From Procambarus clarkii (taxonomy: Eukaryota > Arthropoda > Malacostraca > Decapoda > Cambaridae), in the NCBI RefSeq assembly GCF_040958095.1, contig NC_091193.1:19083222-19147221 (forward strand): DNA of 64,000 nucleotides, written 5' to 3'. Position 1 is the stretch's first letter; each line of letters opens with the position of its first letter. A program made the translations under genes and the position numbers. Below the pieces are notes generated by a model that did no database searches, was not told where the DNA came from, and was given only the letters and a program-made list of their open reading frames with translations. This document shows, piece by piece, positions 1-23,739 of the stretch.

Positions 1-245
1 ACCATTGCTTGGGGCTCCATTAGAGGCGCCAAATCCGTTACCAAAACCTCCATTTGGGGCTCCGTAACTATTTGAAGGTCGCTTGTCAGCGATGGACAAT
101 CCCAGCAGGGCTGTAAAGGACAAATAATGTTCATAATATTTTGAAATTGAAGAAATATACTTCCAATTCTAAAATTAGCATATATCAAGAATTATCACTG
201 CAGTAAAGTTAAATTATATTTACCAATGAACAGAAGAACCTTCAT
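1..245 (-). CDS. CPAP1/resilin-like cuticle protein, copy 1 (cut by window edge)
   Basis: Only the 5' end is present. Exon 1 is 245-224 and encodes MKVLLFI plus the first base of the next codon. The intron is 223-111 (GT..AG, 113 bp), and exon 2 runs from 110 off the left edge. The joined product starts MKVLLFIALLGLSIA, then DKRPSNSYGAPNGG, so the signal peptide is split by a phase-1 intron. About 44 residues are visible; the chitin-binding domain and Asn-Gly tail would lie outside the window. Residue 7 is Ile, as in copy 6, whereas copies 2-5 have Thr. It also shares third-position variants with copy 6 in the first 110 bp of exon 2. The intron and upstream DNA are diverged from copies 2-5. 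The identity follows from near-identity to the complete copies; whether the rest is intact cannot be seen. Confidence 0.85.
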
Positions 246-345
246 GTTATCGGTCAGCAGAAAGTTGAAGTACAGAGAAATATAAAGCAGAGTCAACCAG
301 AGAAGGAGCTGCTGGAATGTGATGCTGGAGGTCGCTTTTCCAGCT

Positions 346-351
346 TTTATA
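346..351 (-). promoter_or_regulatory. TATA box of copy 1
   Basis: Minus-strand TATAAAAG lies 106 bp upstream of the ATG at 245, at the same place as in the other five copies. The GC-rich block just upstream (CTCCGCCCACTCAAA in plus-strand reading) is also conserved. Transcription should start about 30 bp downstream, near 320. Confidence 0.75.
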
Positions 352-1109
352 CCCGGGCGCTCACCAAGCTCCGCCCACTCAAAGTTATCTCCTCCCTCCC
401 TTCCTTGCCCGCCCTCGCCCACTCCTCTCTCTCGTGATATGTCCGTCCAGCTTATGAAGGGACGGACATAGGCTGGACGTGGTAGGCATGAGTTGAATGA
501 TTTAAGAGATATTATTAATTAGTTACTACCTCCCTCTTCACCCTCTCCCCATGTCTCACGGATTCAATTCTGGTCAAGTGTGAAACATTGGTTGACATGC
601 CCGAAGAACTTTTTTGCCAAAAGTATTTGCTTGAGACCCACACAGTAGTTATAAACTCGCCTTGGAAATAGGCACATATGGCAAGTCAGTGAGGCTGAGT
701 CACTATCAGCATATCCCAACCTATCCTCCTGTTTAGATAGTACTTTTTGTAACTATGTGCACTATAGTACAAACACTGACGTACTAAGCAATTACATAGT
801 TTACTAGACTTTGTACTAGTCACTTTATAGAGTCCGAAAAAAATTAATTAAAAGTAAACTTAAATATTCCTAGGCTTGTTATAGCACACATATGTACCAG
901 GCATGAGCTAGCGTGTATTAGGCCTAGGATAGTTAGGCTAAGTTAGTTTAGTTTGTCTTTCCAACATAAGTAGTAAGTCGTTTTCCGGTTTGTTGATATT
1001 CAGTAGTACCAATTTCTACTTTCCAATTGTATTGTACATCGGTGTATGTATTATGGTCCTCATTCTTCCTATAAGTACTACCAAAACAGGAGGATGGGCT
1101 GAGTATTCA
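352..1109. other. 5' flank of copy 1, nothing recognised
   Basis: This is AT-rich non-coding DNA upstream of copy 1. Apart from the promoter-proximal 60 bp, I see no clear match to the spacers of copies 2-5 and no convincing coding signal. An open frame at 990-1181 has a non-coding look except for its end, which is a LINE tail relic. Confidence 0.5.
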
Positions 1110-1290
1110 GCTTGTAAATTCAAAGACAAACCATTATATAACTCACTTGAACACTACATTATTGAATGTGAATCTGTATAATATTTTAGACCTCCTGGCC
1201 TGTTGTACAATCAACTATATAATTACGTCGTTGAATCTGGTACATTTTAAGACATTCTGACAATTTATCCCAAGTTTGCGTGTCCATTCT
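1110..1290 (+). mobile_element. LINE RNase-H-type 3' end relic
   Basis: The translation contains CKFKDKPLYNSLEHYIIECE and, after a stop, LTIYPKFACPF. These match the terminal zinc-knuckle and last codons of the LINE proteins at 57881-58474 (CKLCQQ...LRHYVMECEKI...ILAKYPQFANCR) and 59495-59863. It is interrupted by stops, so it is a decayed fragment. Confidence 0.6.
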
Positions 1291-1479
1291 AAAGAATAAA
1301 GAACGATAATTTTATTAATTTATTATTATTAAATTTTTAAGATTCATATTTCACGAATCCATCCCTGCCGTGTGGGGGTAGTGAACAATTGAACGTTTCA
1401 TTTACAAATTCGTAAACTGAAGCATGTAATATATATGATGTAGTAGAATGTACACTCCTGAAATATACATGTGCTTCAG

Positions 1480-1620
1480 TCTACAATTTAGGCCAATTGT
1501 CTTGTGTATGATCCTCTGTCGTGTGCGGTAGGGAATACCAACAGCACCTCGCTGTAACAGGACTTAGTTGAATTACTGTGATAAAGAAAAATTCTAAATT
1601 TTGTCAATAAAGATGGTAAT
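1480..1620 (+). repeat. Dispersed repeat, probable LINE 3' untranslated tail
   Basis: The segment runs from the CTTGTGTATGATCCTCTGTC region to TTTTGTCAATAAAGATG. It is clearly similar to 39845-39975, with the same order of blocks and the same AATAAAGATG end. The position after a LINE protein relic suggests a 3' untranslated region. Confidence 0.5.
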
Positions 1621-1739
1621 AATAAGGAAATAAACGGAAGAGGGGGCTAAGCAAGGTGGGGAGGAGGACGTGCGAAGGGGCAAGGACGAGGGAAGGGGAA
1701 TGGAGGGGAGTGGGAGAGACGGAGAGGATGACTGATGTG

Positions 1740-2110
1740 TGTGGGGGGGGGGGGGGGGTCTCGTGGCTGACGAGTATCTCAGATAGTTTAGACTCAGGTG
1801 TTCAAAAAGGTGAGATGGATAATATTATGTATCAGGGAAGATTATTAACAGTTGGTGCCGAGCATAGAAAGAAGGTTAGGTGAGATCCGTCTATTCTTGA
1901 ACATGATTCTTAATATTGTATTGTGGGCTATTTAAAAATCCTCTTACGGTACAAGAATAGTTGGAGGACCAGAAGCAATTTGCAGAAGTGTGTTGTTAAG
2001 GTTGTAACACACTCAATTCACAGTGGAATATGAGGATTTTTTTTATGTTTGTAAATCACGGCGCAAGATGGACAAATGAAAGTTCCAGCTCAGTTGCTCG
2101 TCAATTACTA
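1740..2110 (+). repeat. Diverged LTR-like/PBS segment
   Basis: The segment contains GTTGGTGCCGAGCATAGAA near 1853, which matches the TTGGTGCCGAACACAGAG motif in the array spacers. The following 80 bp (TATTCTTGAACATGATTCTT..) also align loosely with them. A poly-G run lies at 1742-1758. It seems to be an older copy of the spacer LTR-like block upstream of copy 1. Confidence 0.35.
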
Positions 2111-2114
2111 TACC

Positions 2115-2663
2115 CAGTCCGTCCTCATCAACAAAGATCAAATGTTCGTTAATCCAGCCGGCAAACCTGTTTATAAATGAAGACACGGTTTACACGCGAC
2201 TCAGAACTGATGACGTATGTACTTGTATATACTCTCTTCGCTGACGTCCTCTACTCGAATATCAAGATTGTAAATGCTTCACCCACGTACTACAAACACA
2301 AATCTAGTGGTCTTTCTAGTGGTCAAATCTAATCCACTTTGCCTAGTGGACCAAACTCTCACAAGTCAAGCCTGGCCTCGGGCCGGGCTTGGGGGAGTAA
2401 AAGAACTCCCAGAACCCCATCAACCAGGTATCAACCAGGTAACAAATACTCGCCAGCAGAACCTAAATACCTAACCTAACCAATGCCTAATTATACGTTG
2501 AATTTTTTTGTATAATAATATTAATTTATATATGAGACTAAACATATTTTTATTACACAGTGTGTTAAAACTGATGACAACGTCTTGAGGGACGACGGCT
2601 GCGCTAACGAGCATGGCCTGAGGACTGGTTGAGGATATAACATTTGTTGTTGAGGACGGGTTG
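2115..2663. mobile_element. Short terminal-inverted-repeat element (family A), copy 1, with nested LINE tail
   Basis: The left end is CAGTCCGTCCTC and the right end is GAGGACGGGTTG, imperfect inverted termini. A second copy lies at 36764-37148 with the same internal blocks (TGCTTCACCCACGTACTAC, the CGCCAGCAGAACCTAAA block, TAATTTATA...). No coding capacity is visible, so it is a non-autonomous (MITE-like) element. It is interrupted by an insertion at 2304-2441. Confidence 0.6.
2298..2447 (+). mobile_element. Nested 5'-truncated LINE 3' end with target-site duplication
   Basis: The insert 2304-2441 is flanked by direct repeats ACAAAT (2298-2303 and 2442-2447). The sibling element at 36764-37148 has a single ACAAAT at 36953-36958, an empty site. 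The insert contains CAAGTCAAGCCTGGCC and the GGGCCGGGCTTGGGGGAG block. The same LINE 3' end is found in the array spacers. It ends in a short tandem tail (ATCAACCAGGT-like, twice). Confidence 0.7.
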
Positions 2664-2751
2664 TACTTGTTGATGAACTTGTCTTTGTTTATAATTTTTC
2701 ATTTGATCTTCCTCACCTGGAAGGAGCGGGTCATTAGCGGCCAGGTGAGTG

Positions 2752-2845
2752 AGTGTAGTCAGTTAAGGCGTACCAGTCATGTCAGTTACGCGGACACCTG
2801 TACTCTCTGGGTTCCAGTCAACTGCTGAGAGGGTGTTTATATGTA
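2752..2845 (+). mobile_element. tRNA-derived SINE fragment
   Basis: The sequence AGTTAAGGCGTACC..GTCAGTTACGCGG..CTCTGGGTTCCAGTCAACTG resembles the SINE at 27335-27440 (GGTTAAGGCGTACCTGTTATG..GGGTTCGAGTCTCC). The B box is degenerate. The preceding bases (CACCTGGAAGGAGCGGGTCATTA) also have a relative near 28640. Confidence 0.45.
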
Positions 2846-2851
2846 TGTATG

Positions 2852-3341
<490 letters not shown>

Positions 3342-3425
<84 letters not shown>
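3342..3425. repeat. (TA)n microsatellite
   Basis: A perfect dinucleotide run abuts the right terminus of the TIR element. Confidence 0.95.
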
Positions 3426-3428
<3 letters not shown>

Positions 3429-3790
3429 AACAAGCCTGAATGGTCCCCAGGACAATATGCAACTGAAAACTCACACCCCCAGAAGTGACTCGAACCCATA
3501 CTCCCAGGAGCAACGCAACTGGTATGTACAAGACGCCTTAATCCACTTGACCATCACGACCGGATAAAATGAGGTGATAGCCGAGGCTATTTGAACCACC
3601 CCACCGCCGGCACTCGGATAGTAATCTTGGGCATAGCATTTTACCAAATCACCTCATTCTTTGGGGCACACGTGAGGAACACAAATGCGAACAAGCCTGA
3701 ATGGTCCCCAGGACAATATGCAACTGAAAACTCACACCCCAGAAGTGACTCGAACCCATACTCCATACCATACTTTGTTATATAAGAACC
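3426..3790 (-). mobile_element. tRNA-derived SINE, two partial copies
   Basis: On the minus strand the head reads TGGTCAAGTGGATTAAGGCG (A-box-like) and GGGTTCGAGTCAC (B-box-like), then a body ending in AGGCTTGTTCGC. The body block GCGAACAAGCCTGAATGGTC occurs twice (3426 and 3687), so two copies lie in tandem. The second is cut within its tRNA head by the TA-rich sequence after 3770. Confidence 0.65.
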
Positions 3791-3799
3791 CATACTTTG

Positions 3800-4294
<495 letters not shown>

Positions 4295-4300
4295 TTTATT
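4295..4300 (-). terminator. Polyadenylation signal AATAAA, copy 2
   Basis: Minus-strand AATAAA lies 159 bp after the stop codon of copy 2, in the same place as in copies 3-6. Confidence 0.7.
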
Positions 4301-4458
4301 ATATATTATTAAAGACAATCATCGAGAAATGAGACACAATTGTCATTCGTATAAATATTTACAAAAGTGCAAAGTCAACGTGTAATTCTTTCCTGACTCG
4401 AATCATTGTAGCAGAGAGACAGTCAAGTGACAGAAGACATGAGGCAAAGACGGACATT

Positions 4459-5714
4459 TTAAAATGGAGTTCCATAGGCAGCGGAGGGAGCAGATGGAGC
4501 AACATATCCGTTGCTGGCACCATTTCCATTGACACCGTTGCCATTGGCACCATTGCCGTTACTGGCACCATTTCCATTGCCGTTCAATCCGTAACCATTG
4601 TTACCGTTGCTTCCATTTCCGTTTCTTCCGTTACCGTTGGCTCCATTAGCATATCCGTTGCTGGCACCATTCCCATTCACACCGTTGCCATTGCCGTTAC
4701 CGGCACCATTTCCATTCCTTCCATTGCCGTTGGATCCATAACCATTGTTACCGTTCTTTCCATTTACGCCATTTCCGTTCCTTCCGTTTCCGTTGGCTCC
4801 ATTGCCATTTCCGTTCCTTCCGTTTCCGTTGGCTCCATTGCCATTTCCGTTCCTTCCGTTTCCGTTGGCTCCATTGCCATTTCCATAACTGCCACCGTTA
4901 CCATTACCGTTGCTAATGCCATTGGTGGCGGGACCATAACCATAGCCAACGTCGGGGACGACGCCGATGAGTTCGTTGACGGAGTAGAAGTTCTCAGCCT
5001 GGGAACAGTCAACGTTGAACCACCAGTCGCACACCAGGTACTGCTGGTTGAAGATGGTACCGTTGGGGCACAGGAAGGAGTCCTTCTGGCGTCTGACGGC
5101 GCGGTCCTGGCAAATGTGGAACACCTGGCAACGGGCCTCAGGGTCGGTATCGGCGTAATAGCCAGCCACTGCCTGGGCGTCACAGGAGAAGTCAGTGTCT
5201 GGTGGAGAAGCCAAGACAGGGTAATCTTCCCCGGGGACGCCACCACCGGGGATGTTCTCCTGCAGAGCAACCAGTTCGGCATCTAGTCCATAGGAACCTG
5301 TCGGGGGACCGTACCTGTTACTTGGGGGAGCTGAGTATCCATTGCTTGGGGCAGCTCCGAACCCGTTGCTTGAAGTTTGTCCAAACCCATTACCTGAGGC
5401 TGCACCGTTTCCATTACTTGCAGGAGTTCCGAAGCCATTGGTTCCTGGAGCTGTGTAACCATTGCTTGGAGCTCCATTAGAAGCGCCAAATCCGTTATCA
5501 AAACCTCCATTTGGGGCTCCGTAACTATTTGAAGGTCGATTGTCTGCGATGGACAATCCCAGCAGGGCTGTAAAAGACATAAATATAGCTTATAATAGTT
5601 TAAAATTTCAAGATTTTTCTAAATGATCTTTCCATCCCTCGAAAATTTAAACATAAAGAATCAACATTGCAATGAATATATGCTTTATTTACCAGTAAAC
5701 AGCAGAACCTTCAT
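4459..5714 (-). CDS. CPAP1/resilin-like cuticle protein, copy 2 (376 aa)
   Basis: Exon 1 is 5714-5693 (MKVLLFT plus one base), the intron 5692-5568 (125 bp, GT..AG) and exon 2 5567-4459. The start is set by the exon 1 ATG at the end of a conserved leader; an in-frame ATG inside the intron end (MSF) is not the start. The signal peptide is MKVLLFTALLGLSIA. Residues 16-101 are resilin-like (PSNSYGAP, SNGYTAP, SNGYSAPPSNRYGPP). Cysteines at about 136, 154, 160, 174, 187 and 195 have spacing C-17-C-5-C-13-C-12-C-7-C, typical of peritrophin-A (CBM14) domains of the CPAP1 class. The remainder is an Asn-Gly tail ending APSAAYGTPF. It is the longest copy because a 12-residue unit (NGNGANGNGRNG) occurs three times. 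It has Asn rather than Lys at residue 17 and Asp in GGFDNGFG. Expected role: an extracellular chitin-binding, elastic cuticle component. The role is inferred; the structure is seen. Confidence 0.9.
4780..4890 (-). repeat. 36-bp coding repeat in copy 2
   Basis: Three near-perfect tandem copies of a 36-bp unit encode NGNGANGNGRNG. The other gene copies carry only one unit here, so copy 2 gained two by in-frame expansion. Confidence 0.85.
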
Positions 5715-5819
5715 GTTTGTCGGTCAGTAGAAATATGAAGTAGAGAGAGAGAAGTGGAGATAAGAGTCAACCTGAGAAGAAGCTGCTGGAATACGATGTT
5801 GGAGGTCGCTAGTCAAGCC

Positions 5820-5825
5820 TTTATA
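5820..5825 (-). promoter_or_regulatory. TATA box of copy 2
   Basis: GGGTATAAAGGC on the minus strand lies 111 bp before the ATG. The GAGTGGGCGGAGCTTGGTGA block just upstream is conserved in all six copies. The expected start site is near 5793, giving a leader of about 80 nt. Confidence 0.75.
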
Positions 5826-6542
5826 CCCAGGCGCTCACCAAGCTCCGCCCACTCAAAATTATCTCCTTCCACCCTCGGCCACCCATCGCCCTTTCACTCT
5901 CCCTCACGATCTCAAATTTTAAGGTCACTCGAAGTAGGAGTTAGTGTGCACTACTTCGTTGTCCTTTAATATTTAAATTTGTTCTAGTAGCTGCGGCTAA
6001 TTCGCGTATCAAACACTGTTATTATTATATAGTAATTCATTGTAACTACGATAACATTCCATGATGCAACATACAAATTTCAGGAAGTAATTAGTATGAC
6101 TATGTGTTGCCAAAAATAGATTTAGCGATGACACTTGTTATGAGTAATCTGATTGTAACATCATCAGTTTCAAGAATTTAAGAAATTGTTATTAAAGTTT
6201 GATTTTCAAATTTATAAAGATTTTTTTTTTAATTAAAACACTGTTGATGTAACAATACTGATGTAGTCACGTGCATCTTGTAAGCAATAATTGTTATGCT
6301 AAAAAATATAATATATACTAACGCAATATTTATTTATCTAGAATTTATAATGACGAATATTGATATTATTTCTCAGCTAATACAACGAACTATTATCTAG
6401 CGGTTGAAACTAGTAACATCTTAACCTAATACAGTATTTATTAAATAAGTATATAATAAAATCTTAAAAATTAAGGCAAGCCATGTTAATATTTTACTAG
6501 ATTACAGTAATAAGGAAAATAATCTTGAGATGCTCTTAGGAA

Positions 6543-6835
6543 TGTAACACGGTGCTTCATAAGATCCTGCTCAATGTGTCGTTTGATAATTTATTTAACC
6601 AATAAAAGTGTAGGTGTATTACGAAAGTTGAGAGGTAATTCGTGCAATGTATGACAATCCCAGACATGGAGGAACTATTTAGACTGGCAGAAATGAGTAG
6701 TATTTAGTATTTTCCCCTTCTAGTGTATGTACCTTGCGAGTATATTAAACTGTTTATATAATTGTATGCAAATAGTGACATATATCATTTATTTGTGTCA
6801 GTGAAGACAAGCAATTGGTGCCGAACACAGAGTGG
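6543..6835 (+). mobile_element. LTR-like block with primer-binding-like site, spacer 1
   Basis: The segment 6543-6813 begins TGTAACACGG and ends AAGCA (TG...CA). It is followed at once by TTGGTGCCGAACACAGAG, which could pair with a tRNA 3' CCA end. A 27-codon frame (MAGVSLENIVQITPDTNI...) starts at 6916. No integrase or polymerase sequence and no second LTR are present, so at best it is a relic; the call is tentative. Confidence 0.35.
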
Positions 6836-7599
6836 ACCAGTTTAGTGTGTTTGTTCTTAATTAATATTATTCTTATTAATGTCTTGTGGAAATCGGACAG
6901 TCTTACTTTAGAAGCATGGCTGGTGTATCACTGGAAAATATAGTACAGATAACTCCAGACACTAACATCAGAGTTGAACATGAAAGATTTTCAAAGTGAA
7001 CATTATTTTAGTATTAACCTTTAAAGTTCATGAACAAATAATTCATAATATACAATTATCAGCAGTTACAAATGCTTAATGATGAAATTAGTATAATAGC
7101 ATATATTTTAACTAGTGAAAATAGTCCACTAGTTTAGGTAGTCATGAGTTGATAATCACCAGGATGGTCCATCAGGAAGATGGTTGAGACATATGAATAC
7201 AGAAGAAAATGTAAGAATATCCATTTTGGGGTCGACCACCACTGAGTCGAGCATATCCTGAACATATGCTGGTATGCTCTTGTAAGCTGTAACCGTCTAA
7301 ATAGTGCATTTTTAATTTTTCTTACTGTACAATCAAACAGTATTTTGTAAACTAAAATTTATAACATTATAAAATATTTTGTGTAAAATCAAGACTGTGT
7401 TAAGTGTTATGGTAGTTATTTGTATATACAGTTCGAGGGTGAATGAACATCTACGAGAGAGGCGCCTCGAGTTTAAGGTTGTGAAAATCTGCTCGGGAAA
7501 GTTTGAACATAATTCTGAGTCCTATTTATAGTTTTTCATTCATGATTAGTACTCATGTACTAATCATTCACAGTGAAGAGCCAGTGGTGCCATAGGGAC

Positions 7600-7910
7600 A
7601 ATCAGAGAACATGATAAACATCAGAGGTCCACGATTGTTCAACATCCTCCCAGCGAGTATAAAAAATATTGCCGGAACAATTGTGGACATATTCAAGAGA
7701 AAACTAGATAGTTTTCTTCAAGTGCCGGACCCATCATGCTGTGGTGGATATGTGGGCATGCAGGCCGCTCCAAGCAACAGCCTGTTCGAGAAAGCTCTCC
7801 CAAGTCAAGCCTGGCCTAGGGCCGGGTTTGGGGAGTAGAAGAACTTTCAGAACCCAAAGGCGGGGCTTGGGGAGTAAAACTCCCATAACCCCCATCAAGT
7901 TGGTATTCAA
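7600..7910 (+). mobile_element. LINE 3' end relic, spacer 1
   Basis: The frame 7611-7838 ends in RGPRLFNILPASIKNIAG, VDIFKRKLDSFLQVPDPS and GGYVGMQAAPSNSLFEKA. This pattern is typical of the C-terminus of crustacean non-LTR reverse transcriptases. It is followed by a 3' untranslated block (CAAGTCAAGCCTGGCC.., CCCCATCAAGTTGGTAT) shared with 2304-2441. The upstream reverse-transcriptase domain is missing. Confidence 0.7.
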
Positions 7911-8249
7911 TCGACGGAAAGATTACTGGGATTATATCCACCGAGGTGTACTCGCTTCTCAACACACACATGCACTGAGAGCTTTATTGAGGCCGCCGGA
8001 GAGGGCTAGGCTAACCTCCTCACATGATAATTATAAGGTCCGCTAGTTACAGATATTTTTTCAGTACATAATTTATGTATTAACAATAAATTATTATACA
8101 CTGAAGGAAGGTCTTTTGCTAATACATAAACTGTTTAGGAATTGGTGTATTATACGATCATAGAGGAGCTGATGTTTATTAGTATTTGTTTTCACACTTC
8201 TCGGCTTATTTCTTAGTCTCATGTATATATAATTATATACACTTGAGTT

Positions 8250-8445
8250 AGCACTTGTTCAGGCGTGAAGTTGCCTGAAAAGCTTTGCGTAATAGTGGCT
8301 CTATAGATTGTGTAACTCCTGTACGTACAATGTATACATTATTCCTTTGTTCTTTGTATTCATTCTTTTGAATAAATCGTTTTGTAATGTATAGCTGTTG
8401 CCTAGCCATTAAAGTGGTCTGACCCACTTTATAATTAACGAGCAT
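8250..8445 (-). repeat. Dispersed repeat (ACGCAAAGC family)
   Basis: CCTGAAAAGCTTTGCGTAATAGTGGC is the inverted form of GCCACTATTACGCAAAGCG at 35981-36005 and shares the neighbouring GTACATACAATG block. The same segment recurs in all four spacers. Confidence 0.55.
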
Positions 8446-8808
8446 TTAGTCAACATTTTGAGGAAGGACGCGTTCATGGGACACTGAATAGCAGGGGGGG
8501 GGGGTCTTTGTACATAGATTTATAATCAAGGTTTGTATGAACTTTAACTTTTTCGATCCTTGGTAGTTTCAATAAGGGTTAATGTATCTTAATTTACATA
8601 AACTATATTTGGGTATAGTTGACCATGTTATGTATTCAATTTAACATAACACTGCTTACTGAAGATCTTAATTTTAGCTGAACTGAAGCCTGGAGAAGAC
8701 ATCGTTCAGTATGTGGCTAGTAGCCTAACGACCGCTTGAATGCGACAAGTAAACTTTCAAAGAAAATAACTACGGGAATTGATACAGTTATATTCAGCAT
8801 TTGACACT

Positions 8809-8814
8809 TTTATT
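8809..8814 (-). terminator. Polyadenylation signal AATAAA, copy 3
   Basis: Minus-strand AATAAA lies 158 bp after the copy 3 stop codon. Confidence 0.7.
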
Positions 8815-8971: not shown

Positions 8972-10119
8972 TTAAAAAGGAGTTCCATAGGCAGCGGAGG
9001 GAGCAGATGGAGCAACATATCCGTTGCTAGCACCATTTCCATTCCTTCCATTACCGTTGGATCCATAACCATTGTTACCGTTACTTCCATTTGCGCCATT
9101 TCCGTTCCTTCCGTTACCGTTGGCACCATTAGCATATCCGTTAATGGCACCATTCCCATTCACACCGTTGCCATTGCCGTTACCAGCACCATTTCCATTT
9201 CTTCCATTGCCGTTGGAACCGTAACCATTGTTACCGTTCCTTCCATTTACGCCATTTCCGTTCCTTCCGTTTCCGTTGGCTCCATTGCCATTTCCATAAC
9301 TGCCACCGTTACCGTTGCTGATGCCGTTGGTGGCGGGACCATAACCATAGCCAACGTCGGGGACGACGCCGATGAGTTCGTTGACGGAGTAGAAGTTCTC
9401 AGCCTGGGAACAGTCAACGTTGAACCACCAGTCGCACACCAGGTACTGCTGGTTGAAGATGGTACCGTTGGGGCACAGGAAGGAGTCCTTCTGGCGTCTG
9501 ACGGCGCGGTCCTGGCAAATGTGGAACACCTGGCAACGGGCCTCAGGGTCGGTATCGGCGTAATAGCCAGCCACTGCCTGGGCGTCACAGGAGAAGTCAG
9601 TGTCTGGTGGAGAAGCCAAGACAGGGTAATCTTCCCCGGGGACGCCACCACCGGGGATGTTCTCCTGCAGAGCAACCAGCTCGGCATCTAGTCCATAGGA
9701 GCCTGTCGGGGGACCGTACCTATTACTTGGGGGAGCTGAGTATCCATTGCTTGGGGCAGCTCCGAACCCGTTGCTTGAAGTTTGTCCAAACCCATTACCT
9801 GAGGCTGCACCGTTTCCATTACTTGCAGCTGTTCCGAAGCCATTGGTTCCTGGAGCTGTGTAACCATTGCTTGGAGCTCCATTAGAAGCTCCAAATTCGT
9901 TACCAAAACCTCCATTTGGGGCTCCGTAACTATTTGAAGGTCGCTTGTCTGCGATGGACAATCCCAGCAGGGCTGTAAAAGACATAAATATAGCTTATAA
10001 TAGTTAAAAATTTCAAGATTTTTCTAAATGATCTTTCCATTCCTCGAAAATTTCAACATAAAGAATCAACATTGCAATGAATATATGCTTTATTTACCAG
10101 TAAACAGCAGAACCTTCAT
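8972..10119 (-). CDS. CPAP1/resilin-like cuticle protein, copy 3 (340 aa)
   Basis: Exon 1 is 10119-10098, the intron 10097-9973 (125 bp) and exon 2 9972-8972. The product has the same plan as copy 2: signal peptide MKVLLFTALLGLSIA, resilin-like segment, CBM14 with all six cysteines, Asn-Gly tail. It is the shortest complete copy, because one block near the C-terminus (AGNGNGANGNGVNGNG in sister copies) is missing in frame. Distinctive changes are Glu in GGFGNEFGASNG and Ile in NGAINGYANG. The domain retains PPDTDFSC, as in copy 2. The reading frame is intact, the splice sites are canonical, and the leader and TATA are conserved, so it is probably expressed. Promoter details (GAAGTGGAGAGAGAAGTGG leader) group it with copy 5. 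Confidence 0.9.
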
Positions 10120-10222: not shown

Positions 10223-10228
10223 TTTATA
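10223..10228 (-). promoter_or_regulatory. TATA box of copy 3
   Basis: TATAAA in the conserved GGGTATAAAGGC context lies 109 bp upstream of the ATG. Confidence 0.75.
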
Positions 10229-10953
10229 CCCAGGCGCTCACCAAGCTCCGCCCACTCAAAATTATCTCCTTCCACCCTCGGCCACCCATCGCCCTTTCAC
10301 TCTCACTCACGATCTCAAATTTTAAAGTCGCTCGAAGTAGGAGCTAGTGTGCACTACTTTGTCGTCCTCTAATATTTAAATTTGTTCTAGTAGCTGCGGC
10401 TAATTCGCGTACCAAACACTGTTATTATTATATAGTAATACATTGTAACTACGGTAACATTCCATGATGCAACATACAAATTTCAGGAAGTAATTAGTAT
10501 GACTATGTGTTGCCTAAAACCGATTTAGCGATGACACTTGTTAGGAGTAATCTGATTGTAACATCATCAGTTACAAGAATTTAACAAATTGTTATTAAAG
10601 TTTGATTTTGAAATTTATGAAGAATATTTTTTGTTAATTAAAACACTGTTGATGTAACAATACTGATGCAGTCACGTGCATCTTGTAAACAATAATTGTT
10701 AAGCTAAAAAACATAATATATACTAACGCAATATTTATTTCTTTATCTAGAATTTATAATGACGAATATTGATGTATTTTTCTGCTTATATAACAAACTA
10801 TTATCTAGCGGTTAAAACTAGTAACATCTTAACCCAATACGGTATTTATTAAATACGTATATATAATAAAAATCTTAAAAATTAAGGCGAGCTATGTTAA
10901 TATTTGACTAGATAACAGTAATAAGAACAATAATCTTGAGATGCTCTTAGGAA

Positions 10954-13302: not shown

Positions 13303-13308
13303 TTTATT
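13303..13308 (-). terminator. Polyadenylation signal AATAAA, copy 4
   Basis: Minus-strand AATAAA lies 158 bp after the copy 4 stop codon. Confidence 0.7.
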
Positions 13309-13465: not shown

Positions 13466-14667
13466 TTAAAATGGAGTTCCATAGGCAGCGGAGGGAGCAG
13501 ATGGAGCAACATATCCGTTGCTAGCACCATTTCCATTCACACCGTTGCCAATGGCACCATTACCGTTACCGGCACCATTTCCATTCCTTCCATTACCGTT
13601 GGAACTGTAACCATTGTTGCCGTTCCTTCCATTTGCGCCATTTCCGTTCCTTCCGTTACCGTTGGCACCATTAGCATATCCGTTGTTGGCACCATTCCCA
13701 TTCACACCGTTGCCATTGCCGTTACCAGCACCATTTCCAATTCTTCCATTGCCGTTGGAACTGTAACCATTGTTACCGTTCCTTCCATTTACGCCATTTC
13801 CGTTCCTTCCGTTTCCGTTGGCTCCATTGCCATTTCCATAACTGCCACCGTTACTATTACCGTTGCCAATGCCGTTGGTGGCGGGACCATAACCATAGCC
13901 AACGTCGGGGACGACGCCGATGAGTTCGTTGACGGAGTAGAAGTTCTCAGCCTGGGAACAGTCAACGTTGAACCACCAGTCGCACACCAGGTACTGCTGG
14001 TTGAAGATGGTACCGTTGGGGCACAGGAAGGAGTCCTTCTGGCGTCTGACGGCGCGGTCCTGGCAAATGTGGAACACCTGGCAACGGGCCTCAGGGTCGG
14101 TATCGGCGTAATAGCCAGCCACTGCCTGGGCGTCACAGGAGAAGCCAGTGTCTGGAGGAGAAGCCAAGACAGGGTAGTCTTCCCCGGGGACGCCACCACC
14201 GGGGATGTTCTCCTGCAGAGCAACCAGCTCGGCATCTAGTCCATAGGAACCTGTCGGGGGACCGTACCTATTACTTGGGGGAGCTGAGTATCCATTGCTT
14301 GGGGCAGCTCCGAACCCGTTGCTTGAAGTTTGTCCAAACCCATTACCTGAGGCTGCACCGTTTCCATTACTTGCAGCTGTTCCGAAGCCATTGGTTCCTG
14401 GAGCTGTGTAACCATTGCTTGGAGCTCCATTAGAAGCGCCAAATCCGTTACCAAAACCTCCATTTGGGGCTCCATAACTATTTGAAGGTCGCTTGTCAGC
14501 GATGGACAATCCCAGCAGGGCTGTGAAAGACATAAATATAGCTTATAATAGTTTACAATTTCAAGATTTTTCTAAATGATCTTTCCATCCCTCGAAAATT
14601 TCAACATAAAGAATCAACATTGCAATGAATATATGCTTTATTTACCAGTAAACAGCAGAACCTTCAT
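13466..14667 (-). CDS. CPAP1/resilin-like cuticle protein, copy 4 (358 aa)
   Basis: Exon 1 is 14667-14646, the intron 14645-14521 (125 bp) and exon 2 14520-13466. It has signal peptide MKVLLFTALLGLSIA, then DKRPSNSYGAP. The CBM14 domain has six cysteines at about 136-195 and contains GYYADTDPEARC, HICQ, FLCPNGTIFNQ and LVCDWWFNVDC. Just before it is PPDTGFSC (Gly in place of Asp of copies 2 and 3). The Asn-Gly tail has private changes NGIGNGNSNGG, NGYSSNG and RIGNG, so the tail drifts faster than the domain. The leader GAAGTAGAGAGAGAGAAGTGG matches copy 2, which supports the two-gene duplication. All signals are intact. Confidence 0.9.
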
Positions 14668-14772
14668 GTTTGTCGGTCAGTAGAAATATGAAGTAGAGAG
14701 AGAGAAGTGGAGATAAGAGTCGACCTGAGAAGAAGCTGCTGGAATACGATGTTGGAGGTCGCTAGTCAAGCC

Positions 14773-14778
14773 TTTATA
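14773..14778 (-). promoter_or_regulatory. TATA box of copy 4
   Basis: TATAAA in the conserved context lies 111 bp upstream of the ATG, the same distance as in copy 2. Confidence 0.75.
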
Positions 14779-15499
14779 CCCAGGCGCTCACCAAGCTCCG
14801 CCCACTCAAAATTATCTCCTTCCTCCCTCCCTCGACCACCCATCGCCCTTTCACTCTCCCTCACGATCTCAAATTTTAAGGTCACTCGAAGTAGGAGTTA
14901 GTGTGCACTACTTCGTCGTCCTTAAATATTTAAATTTGTTCTAGTACCTGCAGTTAATTCGCGTACCAAACACTGTTATTATTATATAGTAATACATTGT
15001 AACTACGATAACATTCCATGATGCAACATACAAATTTCAGGAAGTAATTAGTATGACTATGTGTTGCCTAAAACAGATTTAGCGATGACACTTGTTATGA
15101 GTAATCTGATTGTAACATCATCAGTTTCAAGAATTTAAGAAATTGTTATTAAAGTTTGATTTTCAAATTTATAGAGATTTTTTTTTTAATTAAAACAATG
15201 TTGATGTAACAATACTGATGTAGTCACGTGCATCTTGTAAGCAATAATTGTTATGCTAAAAAATATAATATATACTAACGCAATATTTATTTATCTAGAA
15301 TTTATAATGACGAATATTGATATTATTTCTCAGCTAATACAACGAACTATTATCTAGCGGTTGAAACTAGTAACATCTTAACCTAATACAGTATTTATTA
15401 AATAAGTATATAATAAAATCTTAAAAATTAAGGCGAGCCATGTTAATATTTTACTAGATAACAGTAATAAGAACAATAATCTTGAGATGCTCTTAGGAA

Positions 15500-15790
15500 T
15501 GTAACACGGTGCTTCATAAGATCCTGCTCAATGTGCCGTTTGATAATTTATTTAACCAATAAAAGTGTAGGTGTATTACGAAAGTTGAGAGGTAATTCGT
15601 GCAATGTATGACAACCCCAGACATGGATGAACTATTTAGACTGGCAGAAATGAGTAGTATTTAGTATTTTCCCCTTCTAGTGTATGTACCTTGCGAGTAT
15701 ATTAAACTGTTTATATAACTGTATGCAAATAGTGACATTTATCATTTATTTGTGTCAGTGAAGACAAGCAGTTGGTGCCGAACACAGAGT
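15500..15790 (+). mobile_element. LTR-like block, spacer 3
   Basis: This is the counterpart of the spacer 1 block. It begins TGTAACACGG and ends AAGCA followed by GTTGGTGCCGAACACAGAG. Confidence 0.35.
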
Positions 15791-16533
15791 GGACCAGTGT
15801 AGTGTGTTTGTTCTTAATTAATATTATTCTTATTAATGTCTTGTGGGAATCGGACAGTCTTACTTTAAAGCATGACTGGTGTATCACTGGAAAATATAGT
15901 ACAGATAACTCCAGACACTAACATCAGAGTTGAACATGAAAGATTTTCAAAGTGAACATTATTTTAGTATTAACCTTTTAGGTTCATGAACAGATAATTC
16001 ATAATATACAATTATCAGCAGTTAGAAATGCTTAATGATAAAATTAGTATAATAGCATGTATTTTAACAAGTGAGGATAATCCACTAGTTTGAGTAGTCA
16101 TGAGTTGATAATCATCAGGAAGATGGTTGAGACATATGAATACAGAAGAAAATGTAAGAATATCCATTTTGGGGTCGAACATAGCCAGAACATATGCTGG
16201 TATACTCCTCTAAGCCGCGACCGTCTAAATAGTGCATTTTTAATTTTTCTTACTGTACAATCAAACAGTATTTTGTAAACCAAAATTTATAACATAATCA
16301 TTTATTTTATGTACAATCAGGACTAGGTTAAGTGTTATGGTAGTTATTTGTATATACAGTTCGAGGGTGAATGAACACTACGAGAGAGGCGCCTCGAATT
16401 TAAGGTTGTGAAAATCTGCTCGGGAAAATTTGAACATAATTCTGAGTCCTTTGTAAAGTTTTTCATTCATGATTAGTACTCATGTACTAATCATTCACAG
16501 TGAAGAGCCAGTGGTGCCATAGGGACAATCAGA

Positions 16534-16836
16534 GAACATTATAAACATCAGAGGTCCACGGTTGTTCAACATCCTCCCAGCGAGTATAAAAAATATTGCC
16601 GGAACAACCGTGGATATATTCAAGAGAAAACTAGATAGTTTTCTTCAAGTGCCGGACCAATCGGGCTGTGGTGGATATGTGGGCATGCAGGCCGCGCCAA
16701 GCAACAGCCTATTCGAGAAAGTTCTCACAAGTCAAGCCTGGTCTTGGGCCGGGTTTGGGAAGTAGAAGAACTTCCAGAACCCAAAGGCCGGGCTTGCTGA
16801 GTAAAACTCCCATAACCCCCATCAAGTTGGTATTCA
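16534..16836 (+). mobile_element. LINE 3' end relic, spacer 3
   Basis: The frame 16562-16765 encodes FNILPASIKNIAG, VDIFKRKLDSFLQVPDQS and GGYVGMQAAPSNSLFEK, then the shared 3' untranslated block. Confidence 0.7.
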
Positions 16837-17734
16837 ATCGACGGAATGATTACTGGAATTATATCCACCGAGGTATACTCGCTTCTCAACACACACATGC
16901 ACTGAGAGCTTTATTGAGGCCGCCGGAGAGGGCTAGGCTAACCTCCTCATATGATAATTATAAGGTCAGCTAGTTACAGATATTTTTTCAGTACATAATT
17001 CATGTATTAACAATAAATTATTATACACTGAAGGAAAGTCTTTTGCTAATACATAAACTGTTTAGGAATTGGTGTATTATACGATCATAGAGGAGCTGAT
17101 GTTTATTAGTATTTGTTTTCACACTTCTCGGCTTATTTCTTAGTCTCATGTATATATAATTATATACACTTGAGTTAGCACTTGTTCAGGCGTGAAGTTG
17201 CCTGAAAAGCTTTGCGTAATAGTGGCTTTATAGATTGTGTAACTCCTGTACGTACAATGTATGCATTACTCCTGTGTTCTTTGTATTCATTCTTTTGAAT
17301 AAATCGTTTTGTAATGTATAGCTGTTGCCTAGCCATTAAAGTGGTCTGACCCACTTTATAATTAACGAGCATTTAGTCAACGTTTTGAGGAAGGACGCGT
17401 TCATGGGACACTGAATAGCAGGGGGGGGGGTCTTTGTACATAGATTTATAATCAAGGTTTGTATGAACTTTAACTTTTTCGATCCTTGGTAGTTTCAATA
17501 AGGGTTAATGTATCTTAATTTACATAAACTATATTTGGGTATAGTTGACCATGTTATGTATTCAGTTTAACATAACACTGCTTACTGAAGATCTTAATTT
17601 TAGCTGAGCTGAAGCCTGGAGAAGACATCGTTCAGTATGTGGCTAGTAGCCTAACGACCGCTTGAATGCGACAAGTAAACTTTCAAAGAAAATAAGTACG
17701 GGAATTGATACAGTTATATTCAGCATTTGAAACT

Positions 17735-17740
17735 TTTATT
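17735..17740 (-). terminator. Polyadenylation signal AATAAA, copy 5
   Basis: Minus-strand AATAAA lies 158 bp after the copy 5 stop codon. Confidence 0.7.
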
Positions 17741-17897
17741 ATATAATTTAAAGGCGTTCATTGACAAATCACGCTAAATTGGCATTCGTATAAATATTTA
17801 CAAAAGTGCAAAGTCAACGTGTAGCTCGTTCCTGACTCGAATCATTGTAGCAGAGAGACAGTCAAGTGACAGAAGACAAGATACAAAGAAGGACATT

Positions 17898-19099
17898 TTA
17901 AAATGGAGTTCCATAGGCAGCGGAGGGAGCAGATGGAGCAACATATCCGTTGCTGGCACCATTTCCATTCACACCGTTGCCATTGGCACCATTACTGTTA
18001 CCGGCCCCATTTCCATTCCTTCCATTACCGTTGGATCCGTAACCATTGTTACCGTTACTTCCATTTGCGCCATTTCCGTTCCTTCCGTTACCGTTGGCAC
18101 CATTAGCATATCCGTTGCTGGCACCATTCCCATTCACACCGTTGCCATTGCCGTTACCGGCCCCATTTCCATTCCTTCCATTGCCGTTGGAACCGTAACC
18201 ATTGTTACCGTTCCTTCCATTTACGCCATTTCCGTTCCTTCCGTTTCCGTTGGCTCCATTGCCATTTCCATAACTGCCACCGTTACCATTACCGTTGCTA
18301 ATGCCGTTGGTGGCGGGACCATAACCATAGCCAACGTCGGGGACGACGCCGATGAGTTCGTTGACGGAGTAGAAGTTCTCAGCCTGGGAACAGTCAACGT
18401 TGAACCACCAGTCGCACACCAGGTACTGCTGGTTGAAGATGGTACCGTTGGGGCACAGGAAGGAGTCCTTCTGGCGTCTGACGGCGCGGTCCTGGCAAAT
18501 GTGGAACACCTGGCAACGGGCCTCAGGGTCGGTATCGGCGTAATAGCCAGCCACTGCCTGGGCGTCACAGGAGAAGCCACTGTCTGGTGGAGAAGCCAAG
18601 ACAGGGTAGTCTTCCCCGGGGACGCCACCACCGGGGATGTTCTCCTGCAGAGCAACCAGCTCGGCATCTAGTCCATAGGAACCTGTCGGGGGACCGTACC
18701 TATTACTTGGGGGAGCTGAGTATCCATTGCTTGGGGCAGCTCCGAACCCGTTGCTTGAAGTTTGTCCAAACCCATTACCTGAGGTTGCACCGTTTCCATT
18801 ACTTGCAGCTGTTCCGAAGCCATTGGTTCCTGGAGCTGTGTAACCATTGCTTGGAGCTCCATTAGAAGCTCCAAATCCGTTACCAAAACCTCCATTTGGG
18901 GCTCCGTAACTATTTGAAGGTCGCTTGTCAGCGATGGCCAATCCCAGCAGGGCTGTAATGGACATAAATATAGCTTATAATAGTTAAAAATTTCAAGATT
19001 TTTCTAAATGATCTTTCCATTCCTCGAAAATTTCAACATAAAGAATCAACATTGCAATGAATATATGCTTTATTTACCAGTAAACAGCAGAACCTTCAT
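17898..19099 (-). CDS. CPAP1/resilin-like cuticle protein, copy 5 (358 aa)
   Basis: Exon 1 is 19099-19078, the intron 19077-18953 (125 bp) and exon 2 18952-17898. The signal peptide is MKVLLFTALLGLAIA, with Ala at residue 13 in place of Ser. The resilin-like segment has GNGATSGNG (Thr in place of Ala). Before the chitin-binding domain it reads PPDSGFSC, a third variant at this site across the array. The six cysteines and the aromatic DWWFNVDC are conserved. The C-terminal Asn-Gly region is close in register to copy 6 and ends SNGYVAPSAPSAAYGTPF. Promoter and leader details match copy 3. The frame, splice sites and poly(A) signal are intact. Confidence 0.9.
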
Positions 19100-19202
19100 G
19101 TTTGTCGGTCAGTAGAAATATGAAGTGGAGAGAGAAGTGGAGATAAGAGTCAACCTGAGAAGAAGCTGCTGGAATACGATGTTGGAGGTCGCTAGTCAAG
19201 CC

Positions 19203-19208
19203 TTTATA
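19203..19208 (-). promoter_or_regulatory. TATA box of copy 5
   Basis: TATAAA lies 109 bp upstream of the ATG, in the conserved context apart from one substitution in the adjoining CAGGTGCTCACC. Confidence 0.75.
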
Positions 19209-19934
19209 CCCAGGTGCTCACCAAGCTCCGCCCACTCAAAATTATCTTCCTTCCACCCTCGGCCACCCATCGCCCTTTCACTCTCACTCACGATCTCAAA
19301 TTTTAAGGTCACTCGAAGTAGGAGCTAGTGTGCACTACTTCGTTGTCCTCTAATATTTAAATTTGTTTTAGTAACTGCGGCTAATTCGCGTACAAAACAC
19401 TGTTATTATTATATAGTAATGCCTTGTAGCTACGGTAACATTCCATGATGCAACATACAAATTTCAGGAAGTAATTAGTATGACTATGTGTTGCCTAAAG
19501 CAGATTTAGCGATGACACTTGTTAGGAGTAATCTGATTGTAACATCATCAGTTACAAGAATTTAAGAAATTGTCATTAAAGTTTGATTTTCAAATTTATG
19601 AAGAATATTTTTTGTTAATTAAAACACTGTTGATGTAACAATACTGATGCAGTCACGTGCATCTTGTAAACAATAATTGTTATGCTAAAAAACATAATAT
19701 ATACTAACGCAATATTTATTTCTTTATCTAGAATTTATAATGACGAATATTGATGTATTTTTCTGCTTATATAACAAACTATTATCTAGCGGTTAAAACT
19801 AGTAACATCTTAACCCAATACGGTATTTATTAAATACGTATATATAATAAAAATCTTAAAAATTAAAGCGAGCTATGTTAATATTTTACTAGATTACAGT
19901 AATAAGGACAATAATCTAGAAACGCTCATAGATA

Positions 19935-20225
19935 TGTGCCACGGTGCTTCCTTAGATAATGTTCAATGTATCGTTTGATAATTTATATAACCAACAAAAG
20001 TGTAGGTGTATTACGAAAGTTGAGAGGGAATTCGTGCAATGTGTGACAACCCCAGAAATGGACGAACTATTAGACTGTGTGACACAAATGAGTAGTATAA
20101 AGTATTTCTCTTCTGGTGTATGTACCTGGCGAGTATATTAAACTGTTTATATAATTGTATGCAAATAGTGACATTTATCATATATTTTGTGTCAATGAAG
20201 ACTAGCAGCTAGTGCCAAGCATAGA
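19935..20225 (+). mobile_element. LTR-like block, spacer 4
   Basis: This is the counterpart of the other spacer blocks. The start has changed to TGTGCCACGGTG and the primer-binding-like site to CTAGTGCCAAGC. Confidence 0.3.
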
Positions 20226-20989
20226 GTGGACCAATATAGTGTGTTCGTTCTTAATTAATAGTATTCTTATTAATTTCTTGTGGGAAGCGGACATTGTCTT
20301 ACTTTAGAAGCATGACTGGTGTACTGGAAGATATAGTACAGATAACTCCAGACACTAACATCAGAGTTGAACATGAAAGATTTTCAAAGTGAACATTATT
20401 TTAGCATTAACCTTTTAAGTTCATAAACAGATAATTCATAATACAATTATCAGCAGTTACAAATGCTAAATGAAGAAATTAGTATAATAACATGTATTTT
20501 AACTAGTGGGGATAGTACACAAGTTTGGGTAGTCATGAGCTGATAATCATCAAGATGGTTCATCAGGAAGATGGTTGAGACATTTGAATACAGAAGAAAA
20601 ATGTAAGAATATGCATTTTGGGGTCGACCACCACTGAGACGAGCATAGCCTAAACATATGCTGGTGTAAGCTGTGACTGTCTAAATAGTGCATTTTTAAT
20701 TTTTCTTACTGTACAATCAAACAGTATTTTGTAAACCATCATTTATAACATAATAAATTATTTTGTGTACAATCAGGACTAGGTTAAGTGTTATGATAGT
20801 TATTTGTATTTACAGTTCGAGGGTGAATGAACACTACGAGAGAGGCGCCTCGAATTTAAAGTTGTGAAAATTTGCTCGGGAAAATTTGAACATAGTTCTG
20901 AGTCCTATGTAAAGTTTTTCATTCATTATTAGTACTCATGTACTAATCATTCACAGTGAGGAGCCTGTGGTGCCATAGGGACAATCAGA

Positions 20990-21290
20990 GAACATTATAA
21001 ACATCAGAGGTCCACGGTTGTTCAACATCCTCCCACCGAGTATAAAAAATATTGCCGGAACAGCCGTGAATATATTCAAGAGAAAACTAGATAGTTTTCT
21101 TCAAGTGCCGGAGCAATCGGGCTGTGGTGGATATGTGGGCATGCAGGCCGCTTCAAGCAACAGCCTGTTCGAGAAAGCTCTCAGAAGTCAAGCCTGGTCT
21201 TGGGCCGGGCTTGGGGAGTAGAAGACCTTCCAGAACCCAAAGGCTGGGCTTGGGGAGTAAAACTCCCATAACCCCCATCAAGTTGGTATT
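20990..21290 (+). mobile_element. LINE 3' end relic, spacer 4
   Basis: The frame 21018-21221 encodes FNILPPSIKNIAG, VNIFKRKLDSFLQVPEQS and GGYVGMQAASSNSLFEKA, followed by the shared 3' block. Confidence 0.7.
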
Positions 21291-22212
21291 CAATCGACGG
21301 AATGATTTCTGGGATTATATCCACCTAGGTATAATCGCTTCTCGACACACATGCACTGAGAGCTTTATTGAGGCCGCCGGAGAGGGCTAGGCTAACCTCC
21401 TCACATGATAATTATAAGGTCCGCTAGTTATAGATATTTTTTCAGTACATAATTTATGTATTAACAATAAATTATTATACACTGAAGGAAGGTCTTTTGC
21501 TAATACATAAACTGTTTAGGAATTGGTGTATTATACGATCATAGAGGAGCTGATGTTTATTAGTATTTGTTTTCTCACTTCTCGGCTTATTTCTTAGTCT
21601 CATGTTTATATATATATAATTATGTACACTTGAGTTAGCACTTGTTCAGGCGTGAAGTTGCCCGAAAAGCTTTGCTTAATAGTGATTTTATAGATTGTGT
21701 AACTCCTGTACGTACAATGTATACATTACTCCTGTGTTCTTTGTATTCATTCTTTTGAATAAATCGTTTTTTAATGTATAACTGTTGCCTAGCAATTAAG
21801 CCATTAAAGTGGTCTAATCCACTTTATAATCAACGAGCATTTAGTCAACGTTTTGAGGAAGGACGCGTTCATGGGGCACTGAATTGCAGGAGGTCTTTGT
21901 ACATAAATTTATAATCAAGTTTTTTATGGATATTTTGTATGAACTTTAACTTTTTCGATCCTTGGTAGTTTCAATAAGGGTTAATGTATCTTAATTTACA
22001 TAAACTATATTTGGGTATAGTTGACCATGTTATGTATTCAATTTAACATAACACTGCTTACTGAAGATTTTAATTTTAGCTGAGCTGAAGCCTGGAGAAG
22101 ACATCGTTTAGTATGTGGCTAGTAGCCTAACGAACGCTTGAATGCGACAAGTAAACTTTCAAAGAAACTAAGTACGGGAATTGATACAGTTTTATATTCA
22201 GCATTTGAAACT

Positions 22213-22218
22213 TTTATT
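22213..22218 (-). terminator. Polyadenylation signal AATAAA, copy 6
   Basis: Minus-strand AATAAA lies 158 bp after the copy 6 stop codon. Confidence 0.7.
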
Positions 22219-22375
22219 ATATAATTTAAAGGCGTTCATTGACAAATCACACTAAATTGTCATTCGTATAAATATTTACAAAAGTGCAAAGTCAACGTGT
22301 AGCTCGTTCCTGACTCAAATGATTGTAGCAGAGAGACAGTCAAGTGACAGAAGACAAGAGACAAAGAAGGACATT

Positions 22376-23578
22376 TTAAAATGGAGTTCCATAGGCAGCG
22401 GAGGGAGCAGATGGAGCAACATATCCGTTGCTGGCACCATTTCCATTCACACCGTTGCCATTGGCACCATTACCGTTACCGGCCCCATTTCCATTCCTTC
22501 CATTACCGTTGGATCCGTAACCATTGTTACCGTTACTTCCATTTGCGCCATTTCCGTTCCTTCCGTTGCCGTTGGCACCATTAGCATATCCGTTGCTGGC
22601 ACCATTCCCATTCACACCGTTGCCATTGCCGTTACCAGCACCATTTCCATTTCTTCCATTGCCGTTGGAACCGTAACCATTGTTACCGTTCCTTCCATTT
22701 ACGCCATTTCCGTTCCTTCCGTTTCCGTTGGCTCCATTGCCATTTCCATAACTGCCACCGTTACCATTACCGTTGCTAATGCCGTTGGTGGCGGGACCAT
22801 AACCATAGCCAACGTCGGGGACGACGCCGATGAGTTCGTTTACGGAGTAGAAGTTCTCAGCCTGGGAACAGTCAACGTTGAACCACCAGTCGCACACCAG
22901 GTACTGCTGGTTGAAGATGGTACCGTTGGGGCACAGGAAGGAGTCCTTCTGGCGTCTGACGGCGCGGTCCTGGCAAATGTGGAACACCTGGCAACGGGCC
23001 TCAGGGTCGGTATCGGCGTAATAGCCAGCCACTGCCTGGGCGTCACAGGAGAAGCCAGTGTCTGGTGGAGAAGCCAAGACAGGGTAGTCTTCCCCGGGGA
23101 CGCCACCACCGGGGATGTTCTCCTGCAGAGCAACCAGCTCGGCATCTAGTCCATAGGAACCTGTTGGGGGACCGTACCTGTTACTTGGGGGAGCTGAGTA
23201 TCCATTGCTTGGGGCAGCTCCGAACCCGTTGCTTGAAGCTTGTCCAAACCCATTGCCTGAGGCTGCACCGTTTCCATTACTTGCAGGTGTTCCGAAGCCA
23301 TTGGTTCCTGGAGCTGTGTAACCATTGCTTGGGGCTCCATTAGAGGCGCCAAACCCGTTGCCAAAACCTCCATTTGGGGCTCCGTAACTATTTGAAGGTC
23401 GCTTGTCAGCGATGGACAATCCCAGCAGGGCTGTAAGAGACAAATATTGCTTTTCATAGTGTAAAATTTGAATATTTTTGCAAAATAAACTAACCATTCC
23501 CCCCAAATTTCATTATATAAAGAATCATCATTGCAGTGAACATATGCTTTATTTACCAATGAAAACCAGAACCTTCAT
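22376..23578 (-). CDS. CPAP1/resilin-like cuticle protein, copy 6 (358 aa)
   Basis: Exon 1 is 23578-23557, the intron 23556-23431 (126 bp) and exon 2 23430-22376. The signal peptide is MKVLVFIALLGLSIA, differing from copies 2-5 at residues 5 and 7. The intron sequence is unrelated to that of copies 2-5 except at the ends. The second exon is nearly identical to copies 4 and 5, with PPDTGFSC and all six CBM14 cysteines. It also has TPASNG (as copy 2) and GQASSNG (private). A frame that reads through the intron in this copy adds a false N-terminus and should not be used. It is the right-hand end of the array: no further copy follows upstream. The mixture of a diverged 5' end and a conserved exon 2 suggests gene conversion of the coding part. 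Confidence 0.9.
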
Positions 23579-23681
23579 GTTTGTTGGTCAGTAGAAATAT
23601 GAACAAGAAAGAGGAATGGAGCGAACAGTCAACCAGAGAAGGAGCTGCTTGAATACATCGCTGGAGCGCGCTAGGCTCGCC

Positions 23682-23687
23682 TTTATA
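23682..23687 (-). promoter_or_regulatory. TATA box of copy 6
   Basis: GGGTATAAAGGC lies 109 bp upstream of the ATG. Beyond the CTCCGCCCACTCAAA block the upstream DNA diverges from the other copies. Confidence 0.75.
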
Positions 23688-23739
23688 CCCAGGCGCTCAC
23701 CAAGCTCCGCCCACTCAAAGTTCTCTCCTACCTCCCTGT

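Follow-up and report, generated by a model that had tools for sequence, protein, structure and literature searches.

A homogenised chitin-binding core in a tandem array of CBM14 genes in Procambarus clarkii

CPAP1 proteins of Tribolium vary in length, and their domain makes up a small part of the protein (PMC3504105). In pro-resilin, two types of repeat flank an R&R domain (PMC7737337). The resilin repeat has the consensus PSS[S/Q]YGAP, and close to it are N-terminal motifs encoded by the array of CBM14 genes that is the subject of this work, part of which lies in a 64,000-nucleotide stretch of the Procambarus clarkii genome (positions 19083222-19147221 of the contig labelled C44; hereafter, the window) (PMC10743668). 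The R&R genes (CPR genes) of Drosophila and Anopheles are reported to have undergone gene conversion that is centred on the R&R region and associated with coding repeats, and Cornman suggested that homogenising changes in that region are likelier to be fixed (PMC2793513). In crayfish, the molar protein Cq-M13, a relative of pro-resilin, bound chitin and had elastic properties (PMC4444123), and an expansion of chitin-binding families has been reported for P. clarkii itself (PMC10371857). For nacrein/N66 of pearl oysters, a role of the asparagine-glycine (NG) repeat domains in regulating mineral growth has been discussed (PMC6599672). In a search of the literature that covered titles and abstract openings, with few subscription journals, we recognised no account of conversion among CBM14 genes or of CBM14 proteins with NG tails.

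A CBM14 search of the genome (4.03 Gb in 2308 contigs), together with fetched flanks, yielded 14 complete copies at positions 19039778-19106652 of C44, a span of 67 kb; c02 is on the plus strand and the other 13 are on the minus strand. Five of them (c10-c14) occupy window positions 1-23700, all on the minus strand and at spacings of 4405-4548 nucleotides (nt), alongside a further copy cut by the window edge. The array therefore has at least 15 genes, a lower bound because two 5-kb stretches of N (19033222-19038221 and 19078222-19083221) may conceal further copies. An earlier note on this DNA had described a six-member array; five complete copies and one cut copy are indeed present, but the number six is an effect of the window edge, and the real array has more than double that length. 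At its left end, c01 and c02 (19039778-19043833) are near-identical copies in opposite orientation with a flank difference of 0.9% and make up an inverted duplication.

Each copy contains a core of 405 nt (135 codons), which we compared over all 91 pairs of complete copies. We found that concerted evolution is centred on this core, that it affects silent and coding sites alike, and that it takes place regardless of the age or orientation of the copies. The mean difference between copies is 0.011 in the core, as against 0.124 in the N-terminal arm, 0.138 in the tail, 0.352 upstream, 0.366 in the intron and 0.341 in the 3' untranslated region. Cores differ by about 1% whether the flanks of the two copies differ by 2% or by 48%. 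When pairs are grouped by flank distance, the core difference is 0.0085 for flanks less than 5% apart (9 pairs), 0.0123 for 5-25% (8 pairs), 0.0113 for 25-40% (39 pairs) and 0.0122 for 40% or more (35 pairs); without c03 this last value becomes 0.0073 (22 pairs). When all 14 copies are taken together, core distance is hardly predictable from flank distance (r = 0.25, with as high a value in 593 of 5000 permutations). The core holds next to no memory of copy age.

The contrast is sharpest between the three outer and the eleven inner copies, for which sliding windows give differences of 0.2-2% inside the core and 30-70% in the flanks and intron. Silent sites serve to distinguish conversion from selection: between these two sets, the core has a proportion of differing synonymous sites (pS) of 0.036, as against 0.472 for the first 28 codons of exon 2, which adjoin it. 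The ratio of nonsynonymous to synonymous proportions (pN/pS) for inner-inner, outer-inner and outer-outer comparisons is 0.07, 0.12 and 0.18 in the core, and 0.14, 0.21 and 0.33 in those 28 codons. Among the 14 cores, all of which are distinct, 24 sites vary, and four haplotypes are present at all six pairs of the four informative sites. The nearest core to that of c10 belongs to the inverted copy c02 (1 difference in 405), with flanks 45% apart; a core common to these two copies points to gene conversion rather than to unequal crossing-over. The near-identity of core DNA thus most likely arose by copying between genes.

The genes have two exons. Exon 1 has 22 nt in all 14 complete copies; it encodes the start of an apparent signal peptide (the hydrophobic N-terminus MKVLLFT ALLGLSIA, judged by eye only), and a GT..AG intron comes after it; the reading frame is intact in all 14, spread over 11 tail lengths (90-196 residues). 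In each of the five complete window copies, an AATAAA/ATTAAA signal lies about 160 nt beyond the stop and TATAAA starts 109-111 nt ahead of the ATG; array-wide, TATAAA starts 94-117 nt ahead of it in 13 of 14 copies, the promoter of c09 being N. An exact 12-mer, GGCGGAGCTTGG, occurs in 12 of the 14 complete copies and in the truncated one, just upstream of TATA in the promoters inspected; c03 carries a degenerate form. The array features in the window are as follows.

1-245, minus strand: truncated sixth copy; exon 1 224-245, start of exon 2 1-110; the adjoining 5 kb of the contig is N
364-375, minus strand: promoter 12-mer GGCGGAGCTTGG of the truncated copy, upstream of TATA
4459-5714, minus strand: copy c10, 376 amino acids (aa); exon 1 5693-5714, exon 2 4459-5567, core 4942-5346, NG tail 4459-4941, TATA 5820-5825, poly(A) signal 4295-4300
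5838-5849, minus strand: the same 12-mer, c10
8972-10119, minus strand: copy c11, 340 aa; exon 1 10098-10119, exon 2 8972-9972, core 9347-9751, tail 8972-9346, TATA 10223-10228, poly(A) signal 8809-8814
10241-10252, minus strand: the same 12-mer, c11
13466-14667, minus strand: copy c12, 358 aa, CBM_14 by Pfam; exon 1 14646-14667, exon 2 13466-14520, core 13895-14299, tail 13466-13894, TATA 14773-14778, poly(A) signal 13303-13308
14791-14802, minus strand: the same 12-mer, c12
17898-19099, minus strand: copy c13, 358 aa; exon 1 19078-19099, exon 2 17898-18952, core 18327-18731, tail 17898-18326, TATA 19203-19208, poly(A) signal 17735-17740
19221-19232, minus strand: the same 12-mer, c13
22376-23578, minus strand: copy c14, 358 aa; exon 1 23557-23578, exon 2 22376-23430, core 22805-23209, tail 22376-22804, TATA 23682-23687, poly(A) signal 22213-22218
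23700-23711, minus strand: the same 12-mer, c14

In each product the apparent signal peptide is followed by an arm rich in YGAP and NG, one CBM14 domain and an Asn-Gly tail. The CBM14 assignment is based on Pfam and on the cysteines: Pfam on one copy gave a single CBM_14 stretch (E = 2.4e-9), which has six cysteines spaced 17-5-13-12-7, and no other family at E ≤ 0.1, and the CBM14 search detected CBM_14 in all 14 complete copies. Neither the R&R consensus (Chitin_bind_4) nor a carbonic anhydrase domain was found by Pfam in the copy scanned. A sequence search of PDB matched four sequences, all chitinases, with a best E of 0.0023. The tails of the window copies have 124-160 residues with 35-50 NG dipeptides; across the array, tails contain 23-61 NG dipeptides, 5-9 tyrosines and 2-8 lysines or arginines, with no aspartate or glutamate in 13 of 14 copies and one in c03. 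The earlier note's account of intact frames, splice sites, TATA boxes and poly(A) signals agrees with what we found in all five complete window copies, as does its single CPAP1-type domain per protein. Its description of the N-terminus as resilin-like has a thin basis in PS..YGAP-type motifs, which number 0-2 per copy in strict form and 2-5 in relaxed form.

Related clusters elsewhere in the genome behave in a similar way. On contig C37 there are nine matches above 140 bits, and among the six loci compared the cores are 0.3-2.4% apart, the downstream flanks 48-65% and the upstream flanks 46-63%, with the exception of one near-twin pair (3%). The tails of five loci are alike (0.8-3.8%) and that of the sixth is 38-40% from those, so the homogenised tract there usually takes in the short tail. 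On contig C8, 14 of 18 loci are identical across the 52-residue query, with coding DNA there 0-3% different, tails of different subgroups 18-44% apart and 3' flanks 23-68% apart. Both clusters thus show a similar pattern of low core and high flank difference. The 14 C8 loci have NG-rich tails (40-122 NG) and an upstream exon, read in 13 of the 14, with 11-91 NG; NG arms are therefore not private to the window array but recur in the C8 cluster. C8 also carries a Gly-rich subgroup of four (L059-L062), and on C18 there is a gene with Gly-rich arms around CBM14. Because these C8 and C18 paralogs have the same layout, a central CBM14 domain between two low-complexity arms is ordinary in this genome; it had been thought unusual, a view that we do not retain. 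CPAP1 proteins, too, are described as variable in length with only a small share taken up by the domain (PMC3504105), and insect pro-resilin is laid out alike around an unrelated chitin-binding domain (PMC7737337).

Most genes of the three clusters terminate in a short tyrosine-proline motif (YGTPF in C44, LYNRPNRL in C37, LYQTPSI or LYQTPSF in C8), which in c01, c02 and c03 lacks the proline; this common motif may have a role in assembly or be a sign of common descent. As for GC-biased conversion, GC content at third codon positions of the CBM14 part gives no clear split between converted clusters and others: it is 0.82-0.94 in C44, C37 and NG-type C8 genes (0.82-0.87 within the C44 array) and 0.75-0.78 in the four Gly-rich C8 genes; three C18 genes have 0.83-0.89, and three other loci 0.71-0.79. 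Within C8:46484000-46550100, four NG-type pairs (L045/L046, L050/L051, L053/L055 and L054/L056) lie about 39.1-39.2 kb apart with an intron and 3' flank difference of 0.00; these would be either a segment duplicated recently or haplotypes left uncollapsed. The upstream arm frames of L050 and L051 are 208 and 338 aa long. L008 (C61:15502931-15506077) and L001 (C59:21340294-21343431) are mucin-like relatives, in which CBM14 is next to repeat frames of great length, with the repeats VPEVTGEVQQ and TTEEPKTT.

We consider it likely that the array encodes CPAP1-type cuticle or matrix proteins, in which a uniform chitin anchor is kept by recurrent gene conversion and is joined to changeable, disordered arms. 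From what is known of the family, the products would be secreted from cuticle-forming epithelium and serve an elastic or hydrated matrix, with every molecule anchored to chitin through its single CBM14 domain. Both the N-terminal YGAP/NG arm and the Asn-Gly tail, which bears tyrosines and has almost no acidic residues, would be disordered spacers lending the matrix extensibility or hydration. The divergence pattern suggests recurrent conversion that holds the anchor constant as arm lengths shift and promoters and introns diverge.

Asn-Gly is the dipeptide that deamidates fastest. It would be a long shot that the tail acts as a chemical timer, turning the matrix after the moult from a neutral and extensible state to a calcium-binding, mineral-ready one, an idea drawn from this chemistry and from composition only. 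An almost acid-free tail with 23-61 NG sites, or as many as 122 in C8, would acquire a strong negative charge in the course of days with no enzyme needed, while gene conversion held the chitin anchor uniform.

Several observations weigh against a conversion-maintained anchor between resilin-like arms. The informative core sites number only four, and the outer set is three genes only, two of them (c01 and c02) near-twins. Inner copies are fairly alike throughout exon 2 (0.3-10% where scored), which softens the contrast, and the five similar C37 tails show that the homogenised tract can reach beyond the core. There are few strict resilin motifs, and the window core modelled alone gave a poor structure (predicted local distance difference test score, pLDDT, of 40).

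Strong purifying selection could have kept each copy alike separately, with no conversion, including through codon choice or an overlapping antisense frame. Low core pN/pS (0.07-0.18), GC-rich third positions in the CBM14 part of the C44 array and a long antisense frame spanning exon 2 would be in keeping with this. However, pS between the C44 and C37 clusters reaches 0.591 over the common domain, with no codon in common at 19 of 57 same-residue codons, which shows that silent sites are free to change; the four-haplotype patterns, and a core likeness unrelated to flank age, also speak against it. The antisense frame in the core is no longer than in synonymous shuffles (282, 378 and 853 of 2000 as long, for the three frames), and an antisense gene over the core was rejected for that reason. 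We regard selection without conversion as highly improbable. The claim that selection seems to hold the copies agrees with 14 open frames of 14 and with pN/pS well below 1, far from the ratio near 1 of nonsynonymous to synonymous substitution rates (dN/dS) in the CBM14 domain that had been proposed as its refutation; the core likeness itself, however, reflects homogenisation at the DNA level, so core dN/dS is no clean measure of selection.

Recent birth-and-death, in which unequal crossing-over made copies that are alike because they are young, finds a footing in the pairs c10-c13, c04-c05, c06-c07 and c01-c02, whose flanks are only 1-4% apart and which indicate that recent duplication occurs. 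Yet cores are as alike at flanks at least 40% apart as in these young pairs, and the inverted copy takes part in the likeness; the process is contradicted for older copies and acts beside conversion, not in its place, so that as the sole explanation it is very unlikely. Short-read polishing can overwrite differences in near-identical repeats, and the very similar C8 pairs about 39 kb apart could be seen in that light. Such an assembly artefact is nevertheless scarcely credible here, since the 24 variable sites persist, three clusters agree, and polishing could hardly shrink a flank-like difference of 45% to 1%. Finally, the same anatomy might do another job outside the exoskeletal cuticle, as a matrix of the gut lining, an egg coat, an egg cement or some other secretion, as CBM14 occurs too in gut-matrix peritrophins (PMC3504105); likeness to the CPAP1 and pro-resilin layouts favours cuticle, if indirectly, and we think another job unlikely.

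The rest of the window contains a simple repeat (AG x 664, 28952-30279), two minisatellites (a 31-nt unit x 60 at 33702-35563; a 19-nt unit x 25 at 44700-45180) and two minus-strand frames, 57884-58540 and 59498-59911, that have in common a related stretch, SIYHH.IMQ...SRLLDVTTARLRLGY, and are perhaps retroelement remnants. Pfam found no match at E ≤ 0.01 in five other window frames, these two included.

Gene conversion that preserves the uniformity of a chitin-binding module as arms and promoters drift apart would extend the rule reported for R&R genes in flies to CBM14, and probably to crustaceans. As three clusters in one genome are alike in this, such arrays could reveal why the binding module is the homogenised part, and their NG arms, with hardly any acidic residues, pose a question open to test, that of matrix change after secretion.

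The likeness to nacrein/N66 is an analogy only, in that both have an NG-rich repeat domain and nacrein/N66 belongs to the matrix of a calcified tissue; it is an unrelated carbonic anhydrase enzyme with Gly-Xaa-Asn repeats and no CBM14 (PMC6599672). Cq-M13 differs in having an RR-2 domain instead of CBM14, and no NG tail is mentioned in the parts of its description drawn on here (PMC4444123). With pro-resilin and Cpr56F the array has in common a chitin-binding domain between two repeat arms, PS..YGAP-type motifs in the N-terminal arm and tyrosines outside the domain (PMC7737337, PMC10743668), but it has CBM14 in place of R&R, only 0-2 strict motifs, and an Asn-Gly arm in place of the C-terminal pro-resilin repeat; given this layout and the failed R&R test, the products may act like a resilin without being one. 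Like CPAP1 proteins, they have a single ChtBD2/CBM14 domain with six cysteines, no further domain that is recognised and a variable, poorly conserved remainder (PMC3504105); the large tandem array, the NG tail and the homogenised core set them apart. The CPR genes of flies are likewise tandem cuticle genes with coding repeats, in which it is mainly the chitin-binding region that conversion makes alike, and the gene ends diverge (PMC2793513). The array differs from them in its CBM14 family, its occurrence in another arthropod, its larger number of copies and its stronger contrast, judged within one genome; on this comparison, it looks like the same process as fly CPR conversion in another domain family.

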